From Candidatus Jordarchaeia archaeon (GTDB lineage Archaea > Asgardarchaeota > Jordiarchaeia > Jordiarchaeales > Jordiarchaeaceae): a stretch of 60,448 bases of DNA. Both the position numbers and the translations under genes were made by a program. The stretch spans positions 1 to 60,448 of the forward strand of contig JAHQXB010000079.1 in assembly GCA_029856435.1 (NCBI GenBank). The letters are read 5' to 3'. The notes beneath the pieces are model-generated. The model was not told where the DNA came from. It searched no databases and was given only the letters and a program-made list of their open reading frames with translations. Shown piece after piece: positions 28,421-42,617 of this stretch (position 1 is its first letter; each line of letters opens with the position of its first letter).

Positions 28421-29854
28421 TTGGTAAATAAACTAGAGTTGGACTCTACGTTAGAGGCATTGAGGAGTTTTAGGGTTCGTGCCTTGTTCGGAGGAGAAAA
28501 AGAGATCATCGAGTGTGGAAAAATAACCCGTGAAGAATGGGAAAAACTCTTAGATTTCGTCGTGGACGATGAAACTGAGCGGAGGAAAGTTCTGTTAACT
28601 GTTAAGAAATTAGGCGGTGCATCGCTGCCTCAACTGGAAAAAGAGCTAGGAATGTCTAATTTTAGTATTCAAAAACATCTTCGGCTCTTGGAGTACGAAG
28701 GTTTAGTTGAGAAAAGCTCTGAGAGTGGTTCAGAAGCAGTTTATAAGCCTATTTTAAAAGAACCTTCAAGACCTCCTTTTGAAAAAATTAAATTTATTGT
28801 GGATGAGAAGCTCTGCGTGGACTGCGGAGCCTGCGTAAGTTATTGCCCAACAAACGCGATAACTATTGTTGATGAAGCCCCAGTAATTGATGAGGACAAA
28901 TGCATTGGGTGTGGTATTTGTAACAGTGTGGCTTGCCCCAGAACCTTCCTTTACCTAGATGTTTTGAGGCATTATGTAAAGGGTGAGCCTTGTAAACTTG
29001 ATCAGGAACCAATAGCGGGATATAAGAGCGCCCTTGCGGCGCAAACTATGAAGGAGGAAATAAGAAAAGTTTGCCAGGATGGAGGCATAGTAACATCAAT
29101 ATTGACCTATCTTTTTGATCACAACTTGATAGATGGGGCCCTAGTTGTTAAAAAGAGGGGGGAGAACTGGGCATCTGAGCCAGTAGTGGTGACTAATAAG
29201 GGGGAACTGCTTGAAACAGCGGGTACCAAGTATGTGGTTACTCCCACGCTGGTAGGATTGGAAAAGGCCAAAAAGATGGGGCTTAAAAAAATTGCTGTGG
29301 TGGGAACCCCTTGCCAGGTTCAAGCAGTAAGAAAGGCGCAGGTCTTTTCAAGTGCCTTCCAAGAAATTATGGGAAACATAGTGCTCATAATAGGGATATT
29401 CTGTATGGAAAATTTCTCCTACCAGAATATGAAAAAAATTGTTGAAGAATACTGCAAGGTGAATTTAGAAAACGCACGTAAAATGGACATCAACAAAGGC
29501 CAGTTCTCAGTACACATCAAAAGTGGCGAAAGATCTTCCGTACCAATCAAGGATATAACAGGTTTGGCAAGAACTGCTTGCCATGTGTGTCCAGACCTCA
29601 CCAATGAACTTGCAGACATCGCGGTGGGCTCTATAGGATCACCACCAAGTTGGTCAACTGTACTTATTAGAACAGAGAAAGGCGAAGAAATTTTCCAGAA
29701 AGCCCAGGAAGAGGGTTACTTGACCTCAAAACCGCTGGAGGAATCTGAAACGGGACTTCTACTGCTTATAAAACTTGCGAGAGGAAAAAGAAAGAGAAAC
29801 CTTGAGAAACTGGAATCCAAAAGAACAGAAGGAAAATATGCTACCCACTTCTAA
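28421..29854 (+). CDS. wHTH-ferredoxin-FrhB fusion protein
   Basis: 477 residues in three parts. Residues 1-110 form a winged-helix domain of ArsR-like look (ASLPQLEKELGMSNFSIQKH, LRLLEYEGLVEK). Residues 125-170 hold a 2[4Fe-4S] ferredoxin (CVDCGACVSYCP, CIGCGICNSVACP). Residues 180-470 are an F420-hydrogenase beta-subunit (FrhB/FdhB) domain: CQDGGIVTSILTY, VVGTPCQVQAVRKAQ, GIFCMENFSY and CHVCPDLTNELADIAVGS. FrhB proteins use FAD and [4Fe-4S] clusters to reduce F420 or related acceptors. TTG start with GGAGG nine bases upstream. As the last gene of the hdrA-vhuD operon it may connect HdrA to F420 or another acceptor. The DNA-binding domain on a redox enzyme is unusual. A paralog without the wHTH lies at 37532-39049. 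Confidence 0.85.
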   Translation: MVNKLELDSTLEALRSFRVRALFGGEKEIIECGKITREEWEKLLDFVVDDETERRKVLLTVKKLGGASLPQLEKELGMSNFSIQKHLRLLEYEGLVEKSSESGSEAVYKPILKEPSRPPFEKIKFIVDEKLCVDCGACVSYCPTNAITIVDEAPVIDEDKCIGCGICNSVACPRTFLYLDVLRHYVKGEPCKLDQEPIAGYKSALAAQTMKEEIRKVCQDGGIVTSILTYLFDHNLIDGALVVKKRGENWASEPVVVTNKGELLETAGTKYVVTPTLVGLEKAKKMGLKKIAVVGTPCQVQAVRKAQVFSSAFQEIMGNIVLIIGIFCMENFSYQNMKKIVEEYCKVNLENARKMDINKGQFSVHIKSGERSSVPIKDITGLARTACHVCPDLTNELADIAVGSIGSPPSWSTVLIRTEKGEEIFQKAQEEGYLTSKPLEESETGLLLLIKLARGKRKRNLEKLESKRTEGKYATHF

Positions 29855-29899: not shown

Positions 29900-31171
29900 C
29901 TACTTTGTTTCTATTTCAAATTCGCAGTAATCATTTCCCATAGCCATACACTTTGTTTCTTTGCAGATCCATTCTTTATTTGTAATCACTTGAAGGATGC
30001 CCACAAGAGCACCCCCAACAAAGGTGCAAACTGGCCTATCAGAATGGTTATAAGATAGTGCGATTGTAGAAATGCCCTTTATTTTTAATTTGCCAGTATC
30101 AACACTTCCCTCAATTGATAGTACCCTACCCCACCCCGAAACAGTGTTATATTTAAAGACTTCGAACAGGGGGTTTTTGTTATCTTTTAGCGACTCGGAT
30201 TTTATGAGAAGAGCCGCTCCACGCCCTACCTGCTTACCCAATTCGAGGAGGATTCTCTTGGATTCTTCTGGGCTGTGTTGTTTTTCTATGGCTTTAATAA
30301 ATAGTATGAGGGTCTGTATTGGGGTTATAATGTGGTTCCAGCCGAGTATTGAAACCTGACCCAATTCGTTGAACGACATACTCTCCTTCAATTTAGTGAA
30401 GGAGTCATAAAGTGGGAAAAGAGTGACGAACTTGTCGGGAGTAAAAAGGTAGGCGAATCTTTGATTCAAAATTTTGTGCGCCTCTCTTATCAAGGGAGTT
30501 CTTGAAATGTGTACGTATGATTGCCTTTTTTCTTCAACAGTTTCGAAACTAAAGTTTATGGCATAGTCAATAATATGAGTCAGGGTGCTAGTTACCTGTG
30601 GTTCATGAACATCGCGGTTTACTATCCCCAAGAATATTCCTCCATCGCCCTTAGCGTCGAGGGTTAATTTTCTGATCATTCTCAAAACAGTTTTTGAATC
30701 AAAGTCGATAATTGAGGAGCTTATATTGGCGTAAATTACAAGTATTGGAACATCCGGAAATTTTTGCTTAAGCCGAGATTTCGCCTCTTTTATTTCGTAA
30801 ATTATTCTCTTCGGCTCATTCGCTATCTCCCTAATATTCCTAACTTCATCATAAACTACTTTGGTTTTATTTTCGCTTGAAACCAAATCTAAAAAGTAGA
30901 AGCGGTCTTCCTGAATAGCCCTTTGAAAAATTGTATTCATTTTCTCTGAGAAATTCTTCTTAATTTGTCTATTAATTATTTCGAAGGGCAAATTTGTGTG
31001 GATCGTTATAACAGCTCCGCCTTTCCCCAAAAAATTTAAAGCTATTAGGGCCGCAAGTCTATTGGCATCGTTAAGTGTGAAGGAGTCCGACGTTACCAGA
31101 ATTGACAGGCCACTATATAGACGGCCTAATGTACTATCAATGTAATCAATTTCGGTTTTACGAATCTTCAA
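29900..31171 (-). CDS. KaiC-like (degenerate P-loop) plus V4R protein, paralog 1
   Basis: 423 residues, one of four tandem paralogs. The N-terminal 240 residues resemble a RecA/KaiC core: IDSTLGRLYSGLSIL, then VTSDSFTLNDANRLAALIALNFL where Walker A should be; the GxxGxGKT motif is lost (DSFTLNDA), so ATP binding in the normal way is unlikely. A middle VLVIYANISSSIIDFDSKTVLRM and GIVNRDVHE are conserved among the four. The C-terminal 130 residues are a V4R domain ending in GGALVGILQ and CKETKCMAMGNDYCEFE, which typically senses small molecules. TTG start with GGGAG upstream. It is last in the row and lies convergent to the FrhB fusion. Confidence 0.75.
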   Translation of the reverse strand: MKIRKTEIDYIDSTLGRLYSGLSILVTSDSFTLNDANRLAALIALNFLGKGGAVITIHTNLPFEIINRQIKKNFSEKMNTIFQRAIQEDRFYFLDLVSSENKTKVVYDEVRNIREIANEPKRIIYEIKEAKSRLKQKFPDVPILVIYANISSSIIDFDSKTVLRMIRKLTLDAKGDGGIFLGIVNRDVHEPQVTSTLTHIIDYAINFSFETVEEKRQSYVHISRTPLIREAHKILNQRFAYLFTPDKFVTLFPLYDSFTKLKESMSFNELGQVSILGWNHIITPIQTLILFIKAIEKQHSPEESKRILLELGKQVGRGAALLIKSESLKDNKNPLFEVFKYNTVSGWGRVLSIEGSVDTGKLKIKGISTIALSYNHSDRPVCTFVGGALVGILQVITNKEWICKETKCMAMGNDYCEFEIETK

Positions 31172-31265
31172 CTTTTCTCCCGACCTTCAAATTCTTAATG
31201 ATTATGTTAACGCTGTATAGCTTTCTCGGTATGCATTAGTGGTATATGTGTTGAATGCTGAATTT

Positions 31266-32540
31266 TTAAGGGGGCTGTTCAATTTTTGCCTCAAATACAC
31301 ACCATTCATCTCCCCTTGCTATGCAATGAGTTTCATTACAAATCCACTTCTTCCCTGTAACTCCTTCTAAAATGCCAGCCAAAATGCTTCCAACTAACAC
31401 GCAAACTTTGCGATTGGATTTGCCATAGTAGTAGGATAGCGTCATGAAATTGTAAATCTTAAATTCTCCAGATTCTGGGCTTCCCTCCCTCTTGATTAGT
31501 CTTCCCCATCCTCGAATCAAGAAGTAATTAAGCGCTTCCCTCAGCAAATAACTCCCTTCTAAACCATACCTTGATTTGAAGAGATTTGTGACCTCCAAAC
31601 CCAACTTTCTACCAAAACTCTCCATAAATTTTTCATATTCATTTATCCCCAAAGTCTTTTCAAGTTCTTTAAACAATAATAGGAATGTACTCAGGGGAGT
31701 GATCAAAAACTCCCTATCATGAATTAAAATTTTTCCCTCCTCATAGGAAATACTTCTCTTAAAATCGTCAAAAACCGGAGCCAAAGCGGGAAGCTTCACG
31801 AAAGTATCATTGTAAAAAATATAAGCGTACCTCTGGTAGATATTAGGTGAGCCTGGCTCCAAAACTGGAGACTTTAATACGCGAATGTAGGGCTGTTTTA
31901 AGCCTCCCCCTTCTTCGGATCTGAGTTCTACTACAAAATCAGCCAAGTGTATCAGCGTATTTAGTGTCAGAGCATCGTGAATGTCGCGATTAACTAGTCC
32001 CGTGATAATGTCTCCCCATCGCTTCACATTTGCAGTTAACTTTCTAAACATTTTTAACACAGTTTTTGAGCCAAAATCAAGAATAGACGAGCTAAAATTT
32101 TGGTACAAAATTATGAGAGGTGTCTCTGGCAAAACATTTTTAATTTTTTCTCTCAAGTGACTGACTTCAAACAGAATCCTGTCAGGGTCATTTTCAATTC
32201 TGAATACGCCCTTTAAACTACTCGAACCTTTGTGAAAAACATTGTTTGGCGTTGTATCGAGATAATAACATTTGCCTTCATTAAAGGCCTGCCAAATAAA
32301 ATTAATATCCTCTGGCGAAAACCTTGTTTGAATATCTTCATTTATCATAGAGGATGGCAAACTTGTTCCTAACACGATACCCCCTCCTCCTTGTTTAAGG
32401 AAATTTATGCCAACAAGAAGGTTGAGAGTTATAGCATCATTTAAAGTGAACGAATCGCATATAAACAAAATTGAAGTGCCGCCAAATAACGCGCCTAGGT
32501 GCGCATCTATGAATTTCACTAAGGTTTTTTCAATCCTCAA
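31266..32540 (-). CDS. KaiC-like (degenerate P-loop) plus V4R protein, paralog 2
   Basis: 424 residues, same architecture as its three neighbours. The N-terminal part has AHLGALFGGTSILFICDSFTLNDAITLNLLVG, again with DSFTLNDA in place of a P-loop. The middle has LIILYQNFSSSILDFGSKTVLKMFRKL and LVNRDIHD. The V4R part has GSILAGILEGVTGKKWICNETHC and ARGDEWCVFEA. All V4R cysteines (CxxxxC and final C) are present. Probable TTG start at 32540. It lies 49 bases after paralog 3, consistent with one transcript. Confidence 0.75.
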   Translation of the reverse strand: MRIEKTLVKFIDAHLGALFGGTSILFICDSFTLNDAITLNLLVGINFLKQGGGGIVLGTSLPSSMINEDIQTRFSPEDINFIWQAFNEGKCYYLDTTPNNVFHKGSSSLKGVFRIENDPDRILFEVSHLREKIKNVLPETPLIILYQNFSSSILDFGSKTVLKMFRKLTANVKRWGDIITGLVNRDIHDALTLNTLIHLADFVVELRSEEGGGLKQPYIRVLKSPVLEPGSPNIYQRYAYIFYNDTFVKLPALAPVFDDFKRSISYEEGKILIHDREFLITPLSTFLLLFKELEKTLGINEYEKFMESFGRKLGLEVTNLFKSRYGLEGSYLLREALNYFLIRGWGRLIKREGSPESGEFKIYNFMTLSYYYGKSNRKVCVLVGSILAGILEGVTGKKWICNETHCIARGDEWCVFEAKIEQPP

Positions 32541-32589
32541 ACCTTATCCCTCATTTTATAACTTTTAACCTCTTGAAAGACGTATGGTT

Positions 32590-33867
32590 TTAAGCCACAA
32601 GTTTTAATTCGAATTTACACCTACTATTTCCCTTGGCGATACACTCTTTTTCATCGCAAGTCCAGTTCCGTAGGGAGATTTCTTCTAAGATTCCCTGTAG
32701 AACGCCACCTTCAATTATACAGACGGGATAATCAGATTTTCCATAATGGGCAGCAAAGTTAGAATAGCCTTCAACTATTATGCGTCCGGATTTAAGGCTT
32801 CCTTCGTAAATGTTAAATTTGCCCCAACCAGTAATTGAGAGGTGGTTTATTGCAGCTTTAAAAAGTTCTTTGTCAGTTAGCTTGAATCGGGAAGACAGGA
32901 TCTTTAAAATATGTGACCCTATAAGCCTGCCTACATTTTTTACTATTTTTGTATATTCGCTTCTTCCCAGTTTTTTCTCAATTTCTTTTAGGAGAATTGT
33001 GAAGGTGGGCATCTCTGCAATAATGTAATTTGTGTCGTAGGCTATTACTTCCCCTCTTTCAAGATAGGAGATGCTTGCCTTCAACTCTTCAAAGGATGTA
33101 GGAATAGTAGGGAGAATGTAAAAAGTGTCCTCGAAAAGTTCATATGTGAATTTTTTGTATAATATTTTCTTATTATCCACGGATAGGGGTGTTCTAGTTA
33201 CAGACACGTAGGGTTGCTTTTTGCCTTCGATAAGATCTACCCCAAATTCAAGTATATAATCAGCTAAGTGGGCGAGAGAATTAGCCACGCTCAGTTCTTG
33301 CATATCCCGATTAAAGATTCCCAGAAACAAATCACCATGTATTTTAACGTCTAATATCAATTTTCTTATCATACTTAAAACGACTCCTGGTTCAAAATCT
33401 AAAATCAGGTAGCTGATATTTGATTGCAAAATGAGAACTGGGGCATCTGAAAAATTCTTAATTTTATTTCTTGCATTTAGAATTTCATATAAAATTCTGT
33501 TGAGGTCGTTTACAACAGGCGTAACATACTCTGAATGATTAAGAGTAAAGTTACTAATATTATCCTCCAGCACAATGTTAATATAGTGTAATCTACCCTC
33601 ATTTGTCGCCTCTTGTAGAACGCGTCTTACTTCCGGAGAGCTGAAATATAATACATCTTTTATTGCCCAAGAGAAGGGCAAGTTTTCATAGACAAAAACG
33701 CAACCTCCACCATTTTTCAAAATATTTAACGCCACCAGGCTTGCCAATTTTTGAGCATCATTTGCAGTGTTTGAATCCGCTGAGAACAATATTGGAAAAC
33801 CCTGGTAAAGAACGCCCAGAGACTGATCTAGAAACTCTATTCCAATTTTTTTAATTTTCAAATCCAC
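32590..33867 (-). CDS. KaiC-like (degenerate P-loop) plus V4R protein, paralog 3
   Basis: 425 residues. N-terminus: QSLGVLYQGFPILFSADSNTANDAQKLASLVALN, with DSNTANDA replacing Walker A. Middle: VLILQSNISYLILDFEPGVVLSMIRKL and IFNRDMQE. V4R: GGVLQGILEEISLRNWTCDEKEC and AKGNSRCKFEL. The GTG start follows AAGGTGGG closely. It lies 53 bases after paralog 4. The four copies are divergent in sequence but collinear, so the duplications are old and each has been kept under selection. Confidence 0.75.
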   Translation of the reverse strand: MDLKIKKIGIEFLDQSLGVLYQGFPILFSADSNTANDAQKLASLVALNILKNGGGCVFVYENLPFSWAIKDVLYFSSPEVRRVLQEATNEGRLHYINIVLEDNISNFTLNHSEYVTPVVNDLNRILYEILNARNKIKNFSDAPVLILQSNISYLILDFEPGVVLSMIRKLILDVKIHGDLFLGIFNRDMQELSVANSLAHLADYILEFGVDLIEGKKQPYVSVTRTPLSVDNKKILYKKFTYELFEDTFYILPTIPTSFEELKASISYLERGEVIAYDTNYIIAEMPTFTILLKEIEKKLGRSEYTKIVKNVGRLIGSHILKILSSRFKLTDKELFKAAINHLSITGWGKFNIYEGSLKSGRIIVEGYSNFAAHYGKSDYPVCIIEGGVLQGILEEISLRNWTCDEKECIAKGNSRCKFELKLVA

Positions 33868-33920
33868 CCCACCTTAAAGACGAAAAATTGAGAATCTATA
33901 AAAATTTATTCTTGCCTAAA

Positions 33921-35204
33921 TCATATTTGGGTCAATTCAAATTCACAATAATTATCGCCCATAGCAATGCACCTTATCTCTTTACTTGTCCACTTTTTTC
34001 CGGTAATTTCTTGAACTGCTCCCAGTAAACTGCCTTCGATTAATAAGTCCACAGGCTTGTCTGATTTGCCCCACAATTCAGCTAAAGAGGAGTGAACTCT
34101 GACTTTTAGAGTACCGGATTCTAAGCTTCCCTCAATGTTTAGCACTCTGCCGTAGCCTCTAGCACCGACATACATTAGAGTTGAATGCAAAAGGCGATCC
34201 TCTTTAAGATTAAACTCTGATTCGACAATTCTAACGCTCTTAGCCCCGAAATCTTTACCAAGCTCCATAACAATGTTTCTATAGCCATCATAGTCTATAC
34301 TTTTTTCAAAATTTAATAGAAGACTCGCTAGAAGTTGGGTGGGAAGCACGAGGTGTTTCGTTCCCAGTATTGAAATTTCACCATTTTGATAAAAAACTTG
34401 TCCGTCTTCCAACTCGTCTAGATAGAAAGATGCTGGTGAAAAGGTTTCAAACTTGTTTCCAGAAATGTGGTAAGCAATTTTTTTGTGCAAAAGCTTCCTA
34501 GCAAATCCAACTAAGGGTGTCTTAGACACTTGCAAATAGGGACGAGGTAAGTCTTCTTTAAACTCTAATCCAAACTCCATAGTATAGTTTGAAAAATGTT
34601 TCAGAGTACTTGTTATTTCCAGCTCATGAATATCCCTGTTTAACACACCAATGAAAATACCCCCGTTCTGCTTTATGTTTGATATCAATTTTTTAAACAT
34701 ATTTAAGGCAGCCTTGGAATCGAAATCAACCATAGTAGAGCTAATATTATGATACAAGAGAATAACTGGGCTTTCGGGAAAACTTGCTCTCATTTTTTCC
34801 ATCGCGCGATTAGCTTCATATAATATTCTATCTATATCATTCCTAACAAGTACCAGCCCCACCAAACCCTCAAAATTTTCACCAGAAGGAAATTTGTCAG
34901 ACACAAGATCCAAATACGTGAAACGCCCCTCATCCATCGCCTTTGTTAAAGCATGGTACTTATCAGGCAGAAACATATGCTTAAATTTTTTCGCGGCCAA
35001 ACTGTGGGGCTCATCCGTTTGAACAGCAACACAGGACAATCCCTGATCCATTAGATTAAAGGCCGCCAACATGCTGAGTAGCAAGGCATCATTTAACGTA
35101 GCAGAGTCAGCTATGAAGAGTAATACCTGACCTCCAGAAACGCCTCCCAGAGAAAAGTCTACAACCGGAATCCTAGTTTCAAACTCCAAAACCCAATCCC
35201 TCAA
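33921..35204 (-). CDS. KaiC-like (degenerate P-loop) plus V4R protein, paralog 4
   Basis: 427 residues, first of the four in transcription order. N-terminus: FSLGGVSGGQVLLFIADSATLNDALLLSML; the SLGGVSGGQVLL part is the closest of the four to a KaiC start (LGGGxxxGS), but Walker A is again DSATLNDA. Middle: VILLYHNISSTMVDFDSKAALNMFKKL and VLNRDIHE. V4R: EGSLLGAVQEITGKKWTSKEIRC and AMGDNYCEFE; here the first of the three V4R cysteines is Ser (WTSKE), unlike the other copies. It starts with TTG. A 160-base gap separates it from the upstream beta-sandwich gene. Confidence 0.75.
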   Translation of the reverse strand: MRDWVLEFETRIPVVDFSLGGVSGGQVLLFIADSATLNDALLLSMLAAFNLMDQGLSCVAVQTDEPHSLAAKKFKHMFLPDKYHALTKAMDEGRFTYLDLVSDKFPSGENFEGLVGLVLVRNDIDRILYEANRAMEKMRASFPESPVILLYHNISSTMVDFDSKAALNMFKKLISNIKQNGGIFIGVLNRDIHELEITSTLKHFSNYTMEFGLEFKEDLPRPYLQVSKTPLVGFARKLLHKKIAYHISGNKFETFSPASFYLDELEDGQVFYQNGEISILGTKHLVLPTQLLASLLLNFEKSIDYDGYRNIVMELGKDFGAKSVRIVESEFNLKEDRLLHSTLMYVGARGYGRVLNIEGSLESGTLKVRVHSSLAELWGKSDKPVDLLIEGSLLGAVQEITGKKWTSKEIRCIAMGDNYCEFELTQI

Positions 35205-35363
35205 ATATCTAAATTATATTAATGAAATAGTAAACCTATTTTAGTAAATTCATCTCACCATAATAAAATATTAATGGTTACCCTAATTTAAGAAAAAAGG
35301 ACTATGATTTTAAGTTTTTATTAAACTTAGGAGGGATGTTAGGAAGATTGTGTACTTGATTTT

Positions 35364-36524
35364 TTAATTTTTGGTAGGTTTTATTTTGATTCTTTTGGTT
35401 ATAACGTTTCCTTCGTTGTCTTCGAAGGACATTTGGAAACTTTGAACATTCTTTTCACGCAACTCATAGTTGAGTTCCACTTCTTTTCCCGTCGGCAACC
35501 TTTTTATTCCCAGCATATAAGGTGCTGTTTCGAATAGCTCCTCCTTTATGCCAACCACTTTAATGGTAACGCCCTTAAGCTCCTGTTTCGTATTGTTTGT
35601 CACATGTATGACTAGTTTCTCTTTTTCTTTTTGTTCCACCGAAACCTCTATTGATTGTGGTAACAGTTTCCCTTTTAATATATTCTGGGCTTTTGCCTCT
35701 TCAAACAACCCCGCCTCTTCCATGGGAGGTAATACAATGTTTATCGGTATCTGGAACTTAATACTTTCACCAGTAACCTTTATACATGTAATATCAAGGT
35801 ACCAGTGGGAGTAAGCGCCAAATGTCTGAGACCACTGAGTTCTTTCGGTGGGCTCCCAGAAGTAGTTATAGCTGTGTTCAGCGTACTGCGGCACCCTGAT
35901 GGATAAGTAGCCCCGCGTAGGATTTTTTTCCTCAACAGTGGTCAAAATCTCTGGAGGATTCTTTTTAATGTGGACGCAAACCTTTGCATATTTGGGACAG
36001 GAACAACTAATATTTGAGTCATTAACCAAGTCTACGGTTAATAGTTTTAATCCCTCAGTCTTATAATTCAGTTTAATTACTTCACCAGGTTGAACAGCGT
36101 CCTTTTCGATGTTAAAGCTCATCCCCTTAATAGTAAGAGAAACAGGATTAGGCTCAAATCTCTGTTCCGACCTTATTTTGATGGGTTTCTCTGAAACAAT
36201 CTTGAACGCCTCACCATACCTATCTAGTTTCCCCACAGAAAGGGAAGCCCTAATGAGGTAGTGGACATTTTTTCGTATAAGGGTGGGAACCGCCCTTCTG
36301 CTTACAGAGAGCTCACGTTCTCTAACATAAGTTCCACTCTCAAGAAAGCCCTCACAGAATACCTCACTTGAAGATAAGGGAAGCTCGTTTCCACAGGGCA
36401 AGTTAGTGAGAAGAGTAACTCCACCCCACCAAACCTTTGTATCCTCAGCTAGGTCAAACTTGGTTACTGTTCTTATGGAAGAACCAGCCACTGCAAAATC
36501 TCTTGCGCGTAACTCTATCGACAT
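35364..36524 (-). CDS. Beta-sandwich protein, possibly arrestin-like, with shared C-terminal domain
   Basis: 386 residues, cytosolic (no signal peptide or membrane helix). The N-terminal 130 residues look like an arrestin-type sandwich: WWGGVTLLTN, FCEGFLESGTYVRERELS, then VPTLIRKNVHYLIRASLSV, which resembles the arrestin segment of the form PPSxxGxxxxYxVxAxL. This match is by eye and uncertain. A cysteine group CSCPKYAKVCVH near 185 could bind metal. The last 85 residues (LVIHVTNNTKQELKGVTIKV, KEELFETAP) match the C-terminal domain of two other proteins in the block (37532-39049 and 41463-42509). Its ATG follows the GTPase gene by 41 bases, so it is cotranscribed with it. Confidence 0.6.
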   Translation of the reverse strand: MSIELRARDFAVAGSSIRTVTKFDLAEDTKVWWGGVTLLTNLPCGNELPLSSSEVFCEGFLESGTYVRERELSVSRRAVPTLIRKNVHYLIRASLSVGKLDRYGEAFKIVSEKPIKIRSEQRFEPNPVSLTIKGMSFNIEKDAVQPGEVIKLNYKTEGLKLLTVDLVNDSNISCSCPKYAKVCVHIKKNPPEILTTVEEKNPTRGYLSIRVPQYAEHSYNYFWEPTERTQWSQTFGAYSHWYLDITCIKVTGESIKFQIPINIVLPPMEEAGLFEEAKAQNILKGKLLPQSIEVSVEQKEKEKLVIHVTNNTKQELKGVTIKVVGIKEELFETAPYMLGIKRLPTGKEVELNYELREKNVQSFQMSFEDNEGNVITKRIKIKPTKN

Positions 36525-36565
36525 TAGTAACTACCCTAAATTTTGAATTATTTGTTTCCCCCATA

Positions 36566-37480
36566 CTAGCCTTCAGCGTGAGCTCTAACCACAAGATCAG
36601 CGAACATGGACATGTCAGAAAGCAATGTATCAATCTTCTCCTGAGCTTTTTTATCCAATTCCTGAGTCTTCATTATCAACACTGCGATTATGAATTTGAA
36701 CACATGAAGCGAAATCTCCTTACCACCATCCAGTCCCCGTCCAGTGAATTCCGCCGATTCAGACATAAAGAAGTTTTCCCTCAAATTATTACAAGCACTT
36801 ATGAAATCCCTCAGGTCTCCCCTCAGCTGTAATCCCGTACTAACTCCCTGAACATTATGCACAATCACATTACCCGAGGTGTCGCTAATAATGATTCTGG
36901 CGGGAATTTCACTTAACTGTTTCTGGGCAGTTTCAACATGCTTCTCCAGAGACTTGTAACTCGCAACCAATATGTCCCGAAATATTTCAGCGAGTCTCTC
37001 CTGCTCATAAATGGAAGTCACATGAAAAGTAGGATTCCACCTAGAGAACAAATCTAGGAATATACTCTTAGCCTTTTCAAGATTCGTATCAAGAAGCTCC
37101 TTAACATAATCCTTCAGATCATACTTGTGGAAGAAAATGTGCACCGCTGGCTTAATATTATTCTTTGTGAACAGGTCTATAATCTGTTTAAAGTACTCCT
37201 TCGCAGCATCGAAACTTTCAGGCTCATGAAGATCCACAACTGGAATCAAAACATCCGTACCCTGAAACACCTTAGGGTCACTAATATAAGATTCTCTGTA
37301 CTGCTCCTGACCACCAAAGTCAAAAATGGAAACCTCCAAGCCCAAAAAGGGATGCCTCCTAATCTCATACATAATAGTTGGAGCTGCGCCCACAGTCTGT
37401 TCAGGTTTTTTGCCAGCGAACGTTGTCAGATATATACTAGTTTTCCCACATCCTGAAAGTCCAACCAATGAGATTTTCAA
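36566..37480 (-). CDS. Rag/Gtr1-like small GTPase with C-terminal roadblock-like domain
   Basis: 304 residues. The G domain has G1 GLSGCGKTS (7-15), G3 DFGGQE (54-59) and G4 HKYD (118-121); the His-Lys form of G4 is typical of Rag/Gtr1 GTPases rather than Ras. A Thr for switch I (AAPTIMYEI) is present. Residues about 180-304 (IPARIIISDTSGNVIVHN, ISLHVFKFIIAVLIMKTQEL, a long final helix) have the pattern of the roadblock/longin-like dimerisation domain of Rag proteins. Such GTPases signal nutrient or energy state at membranes in eukaryotes, and relatives are abundant in Asgard archaea. TTG start with GGAGG about ten bases upstream. It lies between the FrhB-like and beta-sandwich genes with gaps of about 50 and 40 bases. 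Confidence 0.85.
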   Translation of the reverse strand: MKISLVGLSGCGKTSIYLTTFAGKKPEQTVGAAPTIMYEIRRHPFLGLEVSIFDFGGQEQYRESYISDPKVFQGTDVLIPVVDLHEPESFDAAKEYFKQIIDLFTKNNIKPAVHIFFHKYDLKDYVKELLDTNLEKAKSIFLDLFSRWNPTFHVTSIYEQERLAEIFRDILVASYKSLEKHVETAQKQLSEIPARIIISDTSGNVIVHNVQGVSTGLQLRGDLRDFISACNNLRENFFMSESAEFTGRGLDGGKEISLHVFKFIIAVLIMKTQELDKKAQEKIDTLLSDMSMFADLVVRAHAEG

Positions 37481-37531
37481 GATTCTCTAACCTCCGCAAA
37501 GACTAAGAATCAAATAACTATTTAACATTTA

Positions 37532-39049
37532 TTATTCCGTTTTCTTACTCTCACCCAACTTTTTACCCTCGATTTCCTTTACACTAAGTTTCTGAGACAG
37601 AATAGTTCCCTGTCTATCAGAAATAGTCAACAAGTATTCCCTATCATCCTTAACCCGAGGATAACAAAATTCAAGCTCATCAAAAGGATACCATGTCTCA
37701 ATCTCAGTCTCCCAAGCGTTACTCTCAAACAAATCCTCCAAATGGGCAATCCTCACCTTAATATCATTTATGGGTTTCCCCGAATTATTCGCTAAAGTTA
37801 TCTGAAGCATAGTCCCACCATCAACAAACCGAGCATCCGAAACCTTCAGCAACTTCTGAAGAGCACGCTCAGTTATACCTGCCTTTGCCTCTGCTTTCTC
37901 CTCAACCAAAGGTATTGCCCCCCGCCGTTCCAAAGGTTCAGGAACCCCAGCCACTGTCGGAACATATTTCAAAACATAGGTTTGGCGTCTCCTCTCAGTG
38001 TACATTTGCACCTTCTTCAACCTCGCTAGATTCAACACCTTCTGCAAACCATCCCTATCCAAAGGCTGCAAAGTTAAATAACCATCCTCCATAGCATCCT
38101 CAAGAAGTTCATTAGCCACACCACTACGCACCAGAATAGTTGAATACCCATCAGGAGACCCAACACTCCCCACAGAGATGTCAGCCAACTCCGAAGTAAG
38201 ATCCCTACAATAATGACAACTTGTCGAACGATACTTATCAAGATCCTTTACCGGCCAACCAGCAGTCTTGTCACCATCATAAATTATGTTAAATTTGCCA
38301 GCAGATATGCTCATTTTACTGATGGAACTTAAAGGTATTCCCTGCTTCACCTCAAAGAACTCCTTCAAACCATCATGATAGAAGGAGTCCATACAGAACA
38401 GCCCCACCTTTAATATCTTCACCTTCATAAACAAGTGGAGCAAACCGAAAGGCTGCATCTGCATCTTAGCCACCGCATCTATATTACAAGGAGTACCCAC
38501 AAAAGCAATGGAACGATACCCCTTATCAATCGCCTCAACCAAAGCCTCAACAGTCCTACTGTGAGAATAAACACTACCAGAAGACTTTAAAATATCCTCA
38601 GAACTCGTAGCTATCTTTGCAACGGGCTTCCAAGGCTCCCTCTCATCCTTCTGAGTAACTATAGCCGCATCTATCAAACCATGATCCATAGCATACAATA
38701 GGAGGGAGGTTACAACCCCACCATCCTGACCCTTAACCTTATCTATCGCTGATTTGCCAACAAAAGCCGCGATGTAATCTCCAATCAAGGACTTCAGAGA
38801 AGTTATGGTTCTGGGACACGCACGGTAGCATATGCCACAAGCGCTGCATTTTCCAACTAATTTGGGTGTTTCGTCTTCCATCACGAGAGCCTTCTCGGGA
38901 CAAACTGAGACACAGGTGCAGCATGCTGTACAGACGCCGCTTCTTATAACTTCTTGATTTAGGCGTCCAAAGTTTTCAAGTTTTTTCACTTTTAAGAGTC
39001 TTTCGGGAAACGTGTAGCTTACGTATCCTTTTTCCTCCTCGTTTAACAT
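37532..39049 (-). CDS. Ferredoxin-FrhB protein with shared C-terminal domain
   Basis: 505 residues. The N-terminal part has a 2[4Fe-4S] domain (CTACCTCVSVCP, CSACGICYRACP, about 40-85). Then comes an FrhB/FdhB domain: GQDGGVVTSLLLYAM, FVGTPCNIDAVAKMQ, GLFCMDSFYH and CHYCRDLTSELADISVGS. It is a paralog of 28421-29854 but lacks the wHTH and instead has a C-terminal extension of about 120 residues ending in the domain shared with two neighbours (LQITLANNSGKPINDIKVRI, HLEDLFES, YPRVKDDREYLLTISD). FrhB domains move electrons between flavin and F420-type acceptors. Fusion to a domain found on a GTPase-linked protein suggests a redox input to the signalling block. ATG with AGGTAA upstream. Confidence 0.85.
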   Translation of the reverse strand: MLNEEEKGYVSYTFPERLLKVKKLENFGRLNQEVIRSGVCTACCTCVSVCPEKALVMEDETPKLVGKCSACGICYRACPRTITSLKSLIGDYIAAFVGKSAIDKVKGQDGGVVTSLLLYAMDHGLIDAAIVTQKDEREPWKPVAKIATSSEDILKSSGSVYSHSRTVEALVEAIDKGYRSIAFVGTPCNIDAVAKMQMQPFGLLHLFMKVKILKVGLFCMDSFYHDGLKEFFEVKQGIPLSSISKMSISAGKFNIIYDGDKTAGWPVKDLDKYRSTSCHYCRDLTSELADISVGSVGSPDGYSTILVRSGVANELLEDAMEDGYLTLQPLDRDGLQKVLNLARLKKVQMYTERRRQTYVLKYVPTVAGVPEPLERRGAIPLVEEKAEAKAGITERALQKLLKVSDARFVDGGTMLQITLANNSGKPINDIKVRIAHLEDLFESNAWETEIETWYPFDELEFCYPRVKDDREYLLTISDRQGTILSQKLSVKEIEGKKLGESKKTE

Positions 39050-39331: not shown

Positions 39332-41407
39332 TTACATTTTTTGAGTGGAATCCGATGGTTGTTCTTCTTTTGGGGGCCACTCAAAAATAACCACAGTTAA
39401 ACAGATGAGGAAGGGCATGAAGGATAAGAAAATCTGCAGGTACTGAGAGTTCCCAAAGGGAATAATTCCCACCATTAGAACTGTGGGGTTTAATTCAGAG
39501 CTTTGAACACATATCCTTTGGGCGTCAGAGATGGTCTGATAGCCTTGAGAGTCTATCGCGCAGGCATAAAATACTATGCTGTGATTGTTGAAATAGGAGG
39601 AATCTATGGTAAAGCTGTGACTGGGGGCTAGCATTGGCGTTGAATTGATAATTACTTTATGATAGTCTGTAACCACTATTTCTAGACTGATTATTCCTTG
39701 GGGGTCGCTGCAAGAGATGTTGATTGTAAATTGTTCTCCGGGGCTGATGCTTGTGGGGGCGTTGATGTTGAAGATGGTGGGTTTGTCTGGTGTAGAGCCT
39801 ACTTCTAGGATTGTGGTGTTATAGAGATGGTTGGGTTTGGTTACTGTGATATTATATTTGCCAGTTGTGGGCGCTGGGATTTTTATTCGGCCTTGAGAGT
39901 CGGTGAGGTAAGTGTGATAATATTCTGTTCCTTGTATGCATATTAGGGCGTTGCTCACTGGGCGTCCTCCGCTGTTTTGGATTCTAATCTGCATTATTTG
40001 GCCCGGTGTGGGTGTGTATTCTGGTAGAATGATGCTTAAGTTTTGCGGGATGTTGGTCCATATGGGGAGCTCTGGGTCTCCTAGTAGGATGTATTCAAAG
40101 AATTCCTGTCTGTATATGCTGTTTTCAGCCATTCTAAATAGGCCCACCTTCTGGTAGTACTCCTGTTTACTTTGGTATAGGGCATAGCCAGCGCGTTGGG
40201 AAAAAAGGCCGTCATCAGTGTGGAGGAGTATTTCAAAGAATAATGCGTCCAGAAGAGAATCTGATAAATCATTAATGTTGTCTCCACCATAACTTGTTCT
40301 GGTAGCTCCAATATAGGATATTGCTCCACCATCTGGGTTCTTTAACATAGCCTCACCTAAGCAATCCCCTGCATAGTCTAGACGTGCTGTTGAGCAGGCC
40401 GAAGCAAAAACTAGGGGCAACCTATAACTGTTATTTGAACTCGAAGCATAAGTGGAGTCATAGTAACTGCCGGAGCTTTCAGATCGGTAAACTGAAGTGG
40501 GGGAACCGTGCGAGCATAGGTTGACTATTGCGCATCCATTGTTTATTGCATTTCTAAAATTGTCTAAAGTTAAATTGGTATAACTGCGGATGGAGTCGTA
40601 AAATAGAGTGGTAAAGTTCATGTTTAGATCTTTGGGGAAAATATAGTCTCGGATGTAGTTTTTGATTCGCCATCCCTGAATGTTTCCGCTCTGGCTTAGT
40701 TGGCCTCCCGCGAAAACAGCCATTTGCATCCAGTCCCCGATATAGTTGGCTATTTCTATTTCGTAGGTAAGTATCTTGTTTATCATGTCTTCAAGCTCGG
40801 TTATGTTTGAGGCTGGAAGTCTTCCAACGTATAGTTCTGGAATCCAATCTATCTCGCCAAATTCCCCGTATAACTCATTTCCATTATTGTCAAAGGTTCC
40901 ATTCAGAGCGGCGTAGTAATAGTCGCTTGGTACATTGTCCAGTCCAGTCCAAAAGTATCTTGTGGGAATTATGCTGACGTCGCCTGCCAGTAGGACCCAG
41001 CGAATATTCCACTGATTGTATGCGTCTATCAGAAAGTTGCGTAATTTTGATTGATTGTCGTTTCCGGGATAGTTTTCGTAGATGTAGGTTGTGTTGAATA
41101 TGGTTGCGGGTATTCCTTTTTGTGTTTTCCATTCCGCAAATTGGACTAGGTGGGGGTTGTTGGCCCATTCTGGGGGGGCTATTATTATGTACTGTGTGGT
41201 GTTTGTTTTAAGAATTAGTGGCGTGGGGATGTCTTGTATTTGTAGGGCTTGCTGGTTTTGTGAGATAACTGTGGGTATCCAAGTGTTGGGTGCGGGGAGG
41301 AGTAGAAGTGTGGCTCCTAGGGTTATCAGGAGTATTAGGAATCCAAGCTTTATGAGTGAATTTCTCAATGTGAACACTCCTATTTCTGGAAATGGGGGAA
41401 TCCTCAA
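39332..41407 (-). CDS. Membrane-anchored C25 (gingipain-like) cysteine protease
   Basis: 691 residues. An N-terminal hydrophobic segment (LGFLILLITLGATLLLL, about 21-37) exports or anchors the protein. The peptidase C25 domain spans about 70-460; its catalytic pair is visible as His300 in NLCSHGSP and Cys338 in VFASACST. Two beta-sandwich domains follow: GRPVSNALICIQGTEYYHTY, then SPGEQFTINISCSDPQGI. A second membrane helix (IFLSFMPFLICLTVVIFEW) and a short charged cytosolic tail end the protein. The active domain should face outside. It is placed between the longin-like and FrhB genes on the same strand, 55 bases from the former, so it may be the surface-exposed part of the system. Confidence 0.85.
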   Translation of the reverse strand: MRIPPFPEIGVFTLRNSLIKLGFLILLITLGATLLLLPAPNTWIPTVISQNQQALQIQDIPTPLILKTNTTQYIIIAPPEWANNPHLVQFAEWKTQKGIPATIFNTTYIYENYPGNDNQSKLRNFLIDAYNQWNIRWVLLAGDVSIIPTRYFWTGLDNVPSDYYYAALNGTFDNNGNELYGEFGEIDWIPELYVGRLPASNITELEDMINKILTYEIEIANYIGDWMQMAVFAGGQLSQSGNIQGWRIKNYIRDYIFPKDLNMNFTTLFYDSIRSYTNLTLDNFRNAINNGCAIVNLCSHGSPTSVYRSESSGSYYDSTYASSSNNSYRLPLVFASACSTARLDYAGDCLGEAMLKNPDGGAISYIGATRTSYGGDNINDLSDSLLDALFFEILLHTDDGLFSQRAGYALYQSKQEYYQKVGLFRMAENSIYRQEFFEYILLGDPELPIWTNIPQNLSIILPEYTPTPGQIMQIRIQNSGGRPVSNALICIQGTEYYHTYLTDSQGRIKIPAPTTGKYNITVTKPNHLYNTTILEVGSTPDKPTIFNINAPTSISPGEQFTINISCSDPQGIISLEIVVTDYHKVIINSTPMLAPSHSFTIDSSYFNNHSIVFYACAIDSQGYQTISDAQRICVQSSELNPTVLMVGIIPFGNSQYLQIFLSFMPFLICLTVVIFEWPPKEEQPSDSTQKM

Positions 41408-41462: not shown

Positions 41463-42509
41463 TTATTCCATTTCTTTTATTGAGATTCTTTTTACTAGTA
41501 GTTTGTTGGTTCGGTCTTCTATTTTTAGGATGTATTCGCCGTTGTTGTCGACTCGGGGATATTGGAATACTAGTTCTTCGTAGGGGAACCAGATTTCTAC
41601 TGTTGTGTCCCAGGAGTAGGTTTCAAAAAATTCTTCGATGTGAGCGATGGATATTTTTATGTTTTCCAGTCCTTTTTCAGAGTTGTTCTTGACGGTTATT
41701 TTTAGTTTTTTCTTGTTATCGGTGAATTCTACGCCCACCAGTTCTATGGGGCTTTCGGGAATGTGCTCGATGGCTCTGGTTTCTATGGCGCTTTTTCCGG
41801 ATAGCGGGACAGACCTGGTTTGGGGGCCACTTAAACCGTAAATGTTGCTGAGAAGGAAGTATATTAGGTTTCTCTGTTTCTCCACATCGCTCTGTAGGGC
41901 CTCCATTAATTCTGACGATATTATTGGTATGGATATCTCGCATATGTTCAGGAGATTATTTTCGATTTCTTCCCCTTCCTTAATAATTTTGTTATCTTCT
42001 TGGGTTCTTATAGGTTTGCAACGAGCCAAATCCTTCTCTATTAAGAGGTAAAGCTTGTCCTGCAAGCTCTCTCTGATTTTCTGAAGTATAACGCTGAGCA
42101 ACTTATCTCCTAAAGGTTTAGCTAAACCCACGGGTACACTGATTATGAGAACAAAAACCTCCTCTGTCTCAGGAGACATACCTGCCCTTTGTTTTTCCCT
42201 AGCTGACTTCGCCTTAAACTTCGTGGCGGCATAAACCTTCCCCCCAAACTCCAAATCCACGCGGTTCAGCCCCTCTTTGAAATCGTCTGCTCCCAGCCAC
42301 CAGACAGGATGCTTCTGAATAATTCTCAGCGTCTCCAAATCATTCTTAAGACTCTCTGGGCATGTAAATAGGGCAAGATGTCCTTTGGTTTCGTGAAAGT
42401 AGCACAGGTAAATGCCAATCAAACCCTCTAAAATATTTGGGTGTCGCTCTTCCTTCTTTTGTTGAAATTCTAGACCCTTAATTACATTATCATCCGAATT
42501 TTTAGACAT
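41463..42509 (-). CDS. Longin/roadblock-like protein with shared C-terminal domain
   Basis: About 348 residues. Residues 15-160 have a longin-like order of strands and helices (LEGLIGIYLCYFHETKGHLAL, then EVFVLIISVPVGLAKPLGDK with a long helix after it); this fold call is tentative. A variable linker of about 100 residues follows. The last 90 residues (LKITVKNNSEKGLENIKISI, HIEEFFETYSWDT, FQYPRVDNNGEYILKIEDR) are clearly homologous to the tail of the FrhB-like protein. Longin and roadblock proteins commonly act as GEFs or platforms for Rag-type GTPases, so a partner role to the GTPase at 36566-37480 is a reasonable guess. ATG at 42509 follows GGTG by about nine bases; a longer in-frame extension lacks support. 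Confidence 0.65.
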   Translation of the reverse strand: MSKNSDDNVIKGLEFQQKKEERHPNILEGLIGIYLCYFHETKGHLALFTCPESLKNDLETLRIIQKHPVWWLGADDFKEGLNRVDLEFGGKVYAATKFKAKSAREKQRAGMSPETEEVFVLIISVPVGLAKPLGDKLLSVILQKIRESLQDKLYLLIEKDLARCKPIRTQEDNKIIKEGEEIENNLLNICEISIPIISSELMEALQSDVEKQRNLIYFLLSNIYGLSGPQTRSVPLSGKSAIETRAIEHIPESPIELVGVEFTDNKKKLKITVKNNSEKGLENIKISIAHIEEFFETYSWDTTVEIWFPYEELVFQYPRVDNNGEYILKIEDRTNKLLVKRISIKEME

Positions 42510-42617
42510 CTTAACGCACCAGAGAGTCTGGTAAAACAGTAAAGGATTCATTTTTCAGAGCAATCTTAATCTCTCGGTTCAAGAGTAGAAGTTTGGAAGT
42601 TAGTTAATTAATTTTTC

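Follow-up and report, generated by a model that had tools for sequence, protein, structure and literature searches.

Four tandem inactivated-KaiC/V4R proteins with a remodelled P-loop adjoin a Rag-like GTPase cluster in Candidatus Jordarchaeum

The window analysed here, a stretch of 60,448 nucleotides from the Asgard genus Candidatus Jordarchaeum, contains at 29900-35204 four head-to-tail open reading frames (ORFs) on the minus strand. Each encodes a protein of 423-427 amino acids with an N-terminal RecA/KaiC-fold domain and a C-terminal V4R sensor domain of the MopR/PoxR type, the pairwise identity being 32-37%. The view that the four copies are dead-ATPase sensors is well supported. The reading we favour, at a probability of about 60%, is that they are inactivated-KaiC/V4R ligand sensors, possibly hetero-oligomeric, which feed a GTPase module. 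The array lies at the 3' end of a cluster encoding FrhB, a Rag-like GTPase and an arrestin-like protein (ARR); it follows the GTPase and ARR genes immediately and shares their strand. An earlier note on this DNA had reported the position of the genes and a D-S-x-T-x-N-D-A motif in every copy, both of which the ORFs and the alignment bear out; the Rag-like GTPase operon next to the array and the Asgard origin of the DNA were absent from it.

The paralogs are labelled a to d in the order of transcription, and the motif coordinates, likewise on the minus strand, were computed from the ORF starts. Paralog a (33921..35204, 427 aa, TTG start) consists of a RecA-fold domain at about residues 1-212 and a V4R domain at about 260-427, and its remodelled P-loop reads DSATLNDA (35085..35108). 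Paralog b (32590..33867, 425 aa, GTG start) has DSNTANDA at 33754..33777. In paralogs c (31266..32540, 424 aa) and d (29900..31171, 423 aa), both with a TTG start, the sequence is DSFTLNDA, at 32433..32456 and 31064..31087, respectively.

The AlphaFold model of paralog a (21 sequences, pLDDT 73, pTM 0.53) comprises two domains; its confidence is moderate at the motif and the former pocket (pLDDT ~67) and weak in residues 212-287. In model comparisons, residues 3-258 resemble the RecA-superfamily protein PH0284 (Z 19.6) and KaiC (Z 17-19), and the profile built from 21 diverse relatives hits KaiC (E 6.6e-22) and MopR (4e-13) in the PDB. The N-terminal half of the four array proteins has no Pfam match of its own; Pfam KaiC directly recognises relatives from outside the array, and KaiC PF06745 is scored by 17 of the 21 relatives. 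The model Z-score and the family profile thus place the N-terminal half in the KaiC/RecA superfamily by fold, and the RecA fold on which the earlier proposal depended is present.

Walker A is missing from all four copies, as had been noticed before and as the sequence alignment confirms. With intact KaiC proteins from the same and the sister genome as the reference for the register, the ungapped alignment from the GGG.xxG turn equates GxxGxGK[ST] with [A/S/C]-D-S-x-T-x-N-D. The Walker A Lys is replaced by Asn in 17 of 19 sequences and the Ser/Thr by Asp. The register given in the earlier note is one place off by this alignment, and a replacement of Lys by Asp was dropped. Matches to G....GK[ST] near residue 18 in some relatives were also discarded, being the GGSL..GKS turn before strand 1 and not a P-loop. 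The Walker B Asp has become H, S, Q or A in the array proteins; paralogs b-d lack the catalytic Glu pair, and a has D-E at that place. Save for this D-E, none of the features of an active KaiC ATPase (Walker A GxxGxGK[ST], Walker B Asp, Glu pair) is found.

Among 16 sequences (four paralogs, four genomes) no other of the 415 eight-column alignment windows is conserved as strongly as the motif, which has a mean majority fraction of 0.875 versus 0.57 for the whole protein. Its conservation is not absolute, relatives having DLTTTNDA, DSFTLKDA, DSLTLNDT or DSATTYDA. The two closest genomes give dN/dS ratios of 0.13-0.19 over the four array genes, as compared with 0.008 in the GTPase gene and 0.11 in ARR; the frames are open in all genomes of the genus and the array is under purifying selection. 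The rank of the motif and these ratios uphold the idea that the site was remodelled rather than decayed. The array family has two additional residues after the motif as compared with intact KaiC, and in the model of paralog a helix 1 begins right after D33, the first Asp of the motif; on this structural ground the phosphate loop appears to have been swapped for a tight strand-to-helix turn. The invariant D33, T36, D39, L43 and L46 of paralog a are spaced like one face of a helix. The motif may be constrained as a helix N-cap, as a pocket for a different ligand, or as both at once.

Tree building with 44 proteins puts the array into one clade, and each paralog clade within it has a bootstrap support of 100/100, in agreement with the previous description of four old paralogs. 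Walker A is absent in 44/44 of these proteins, with or without the array, and its loss must therefore have preceded the duplications. The loss is indeed common to the four copies, but the notion of a parallel loss in each gives way to a single Walker-less ancestor. Other clades carry conserved replacements of their own (ETG[ST]M[AG]E; DSGTSQDA or CEGQNAQEA; ADNGTQPQ), one relative (G11) has EPGTGEM, a P-loop altered at its end only, and a V4R-less protein of another family has DSSTYNDA. Remodelling of the pocket thus recurs in the wider family. A further family (f2) was rejected as a carrier of the array, its single V4R-iKaiC gene grouping in the tree with another paralog (C78) and not with the array.

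V4R domains dimerise and take small hydrophobic molecules as ligands, and ligand binding is presumed for the TRAPPC3/V4R proteins of Asgard archaea (PMC10933270). All four copies score above the Pfam V4R cut-off (E 6e-11 to 4e-15). In the model, the V4R part of paralog a (residues 259-427) superposes on the phenol sensors MopR and PoxR with Z 20-21, the agreement with the group MopR/PoxR/DmpR extending over 167-170 residues at an rmsd of 2.0-2.1. Foldseek also returned TRAPPC3 and Bet3-Trs31 for this model, far more weakly (E 7e-6 to 1e-5); MopR and PoxR rank first, and the domain is not closer in structure to TRAPPC3 than to the V4R sensors. The Zn ligands, in places corresponding to those of MopR, PoxR and DmpR, are C/E/C/C in b-d and D/E/C/C in a. 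Pfam score, fold and Zn ligands together assign the domain to the V4R family. Asp for the first Zn-ligand Cys occurs in paralog a only, in all four genomes; judged by sequence, this change fits a divergence of paralog a and is no proof of a ligand. The phenol-binding residue of MopR is His106. At the column paired with it in the profile alignment no copy has His, the residues being V/L, L, F/L and N, which suggests, as far as a sequence alignment goes, that the array may have different, non-phenol ligands.

The order a-b-c-d is kept behind the same genes in 4/4 genomes of the genus. ARR (35364..36524, minus strand, 386 aa) is arrestin-like by profile and has orthologs in 69 of 227 Asgard genomes. 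Pfam Arrestin_C matches in 21 of 27 ARR orthologs are the sole support for this likeness; the ARR profile gave nothing below E 0.5 against the PDB, and its AlphaFold model (pLDDT 38) was set aside. The GTPase (36566..37480, minus strand, 304 aa) has an intact GxxxxGKT and a C-terminal extension of about 120 aa, and it matches Pfam Gtr1_RagA (E 8e-20) as well as Gtr1 and RagA in the PDB. Upstream of it lies the gene of a ferredoxin-FrhB protein (37532..39049, minus strand). This trio (35364-39049; loci L146-L163) is conserved across many Asgard families. On its other side the array is bounded by the gene of an HTH-ferredoxin-FrhB protein on the plus strand (28421..29854). Between ARR and paralog a there is a gap of 159 bp (35205..35363, minus strand) with an A/T-rich box at 35236-35249, possibly a promoter of its own; in relatives this gap measures 191-228 bp.

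In the sister family the locus is the same but for the array: ARR directly adjoins the opposing FrhB-HTH gene across a gap of 36-105 bp, an empty site at the place which the array occupies in Jordarchaeum. In another Asgard family (f25) two tandem genes (L149:7198-9026) follow ARR at that place, one of them with weak longin similarity (E 0.11). Among 20 Asgard genomes searched, V4R genes stand beside the GTPase-ARR cluster in the window's own genome only and not in the other 19. Since the cluster is free of V4R elsewhere in the Asgards and the V4R genes of these 19 genomes are located elsewhere, the link between array and cluster is specific to the genus. One genome labelled Sigynarchaeota (G183) also carries the array; it is probably a mixed bin, because at ARR its jordarchaeal-looking contigs (L095, L097; SQRJ_179) share 83% identity with the window, and its own family is only distantly similar.

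Several known systems bear on the function. Inactivated KaiC-derived domains (iKaiC) occur in archaeal signalling proteins, represented by MEDS PF14417 and DUF835 PF05763 (PMC5847659), and the array proteins likewise have an inactivated KaiC-derived domain of the type used in signal transduction. They are V4R fusions in four tandem paralogs, whereas the iKaiC proteins are fused to kinase or receiver domains; no MEDS or DUF835 match was obtained for the four at E 1, placing them outside these two Pfam families, and MEDS is matched by only three members of the wider set. MopR, PoxR and DmpR share the sensor domain, but the array proteins lack an AAA+ or DNA-binding domain and carry V4R C-terminal to a dead KaiC. 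Elp456 is a heterohexamer of RecA-fold paralogs without Walker A (PMC11050213), and the array encodes RecA-fold paralogs without Walker A as well. The C78 relative, a Walker-less KaiC-V4R protein (L038:2466-4154, G000), exceeds the Pfam PAXNEB (Elp4) cut-off with 34.8 bits, and other relatives match too. The kinship with Elp4 was nevertheless not accepted as specific, since intact KaiC proteins also score with PAXNEB (PF05625); the four array proteins have no match to it and are not members of Elp4.

These precedents, namely iKaiC signalling, ligand binding by V4R and Elp4/5/6, lead us to prefer a sensor in which four related subunits are linked to the GTPase module. One Walker-less ancestor was duplicated into four paralogs before the radiation of the genus, and the array came to stand at the 3' end of an Asgard cluster older than itself, made up of FrhB, Rag-like GTPase and arrestin-like protein. 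The C-terminal V4R, with its MopR-type Zn site, would bind a hydrophobic or other small molecule. Without the Lys, the Ser/Thr, the loop glycines and the Walker B Asp, the KaiC domain should be incapable of ATPase work and may provide a scaffold on which the proteins oligomerise or bind partners. The sensor, perhaps a hetero-oligomer like Elp4/5/6, would then report the state of the ligand to the GTPase module. That the four paralogs form a hetero-oligomer seems to us slightly short of an even chance, and coupling to the Rag-like GTPase is more tentative still. Against the favoured reading as a whole stand the genus-specific link, the gap of 159-228 bp, which may hold a separate promoter, and the lack of a fused output domain (HTH, kinase) in the four proteins.

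Alternatively, the four could be independent homodimeric sensors of different ligands, their position by the GTPase operon being an accident of insertion. Among V4R proteins whose structure is known, Thor-TRAPPC3 and PoxR, for example, are homodimers (PMC10933270); paralog a is preceded by a long gap with a possible promoter, and other Asgards have no V4R next to the GTPase cluster. The full set is retained in constant order throughout the genus, however, which is not required of loose sensors, and we hold this alternative to be possible without being probable. The former ATP pocket might instead be a new binding or catalytic site for a metal or other ligand, made up of the acidic helix face D33, T36 and D39 of paralog a together with N153, S155, N189 and H203. 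These polar residues do not vary among the 16 sequences, and each is found either on a single face of helix 1 or at the C-terminal end of a central strand. Yet D-S-x-T may be a mere helix N-cap in place of the P-loop, given where helix 1 starts in the model; S155, N189 and H203, which the wider Walker-less family also conserves, may be structural, and the model is of moderate confidence there. On balance we think a new site unlikely.

In a TRAPP-like role, which has the neighbourhood in its favour, the V4R/Bet3-fold paralogs would assemble into a heteromeric platform and serve the Rag-like GTPase as its exchange factor or tether. In TRAPP, the GTPase contacts a longin pair; no gene of the longin type was seen beside the array. 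TRAPP Bet3/TRAPPC3 and Asgard TRAPPC3 share with it the V4R fold, homologous to Bet3, and the Zn-tethered cavity (PMC2253512, PMC10933270). The array adjoins a Rag-like GTPase, and the paralog a model does match TRAPPC3 and Bet3-Trs31, while GTPases of MK-D1 generally lie outside TRAPPC3/longin operons (PMC10933270). Unlike these proteins, the array V4R is fused to a KaiC domain. The phenol-sensor match is far better (Z 21), and sister taxa keep the GTPase without V4R neighbours; we consider such a role improbable. Neutral decay of surplus copies would account for the loss of all ATPase motifs; it is refuted by the purifying selection, the intact frames in all genomes and the replaced site being the most conserved stretch, and we give it next to no credence.

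Small GTPases of Asgard archaea are rarely found in operons with regulators and are hence hard to match (PMC10933270). The locus is a concrete candidate for a GTPase-regulator pair, for which the sister family without the four genes offers a natural control. It also shows a P-loop turned into a conserved non-ATP site, with the steps still visible in relatives, several times and with different outcomes. The most far-reaching version, an operon-encoded heteromeric complex of V4R (Bet3-fold) domains on dead KaiC that senses small molecules and regulates the Rag-like GTPase, is a long shot; if true, an archaeon would possess a ligand-gated equivalent of TRAPP/Ragulator.

The ferredoxin-FrhB protein of the trio and the protein at 41463-42551 have a common C-terminal extension, a domain of about 150 aa with 35% identity, to which the end of ARR looks similar by eye. 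HdrA and a second FrhB are often near the trio, whose GTPase is under extreme constraint. Adjoining the GTPase cluster at 39332-41407 is a peptidase C25 (gingipain-like), which is syntenic in the sister family.
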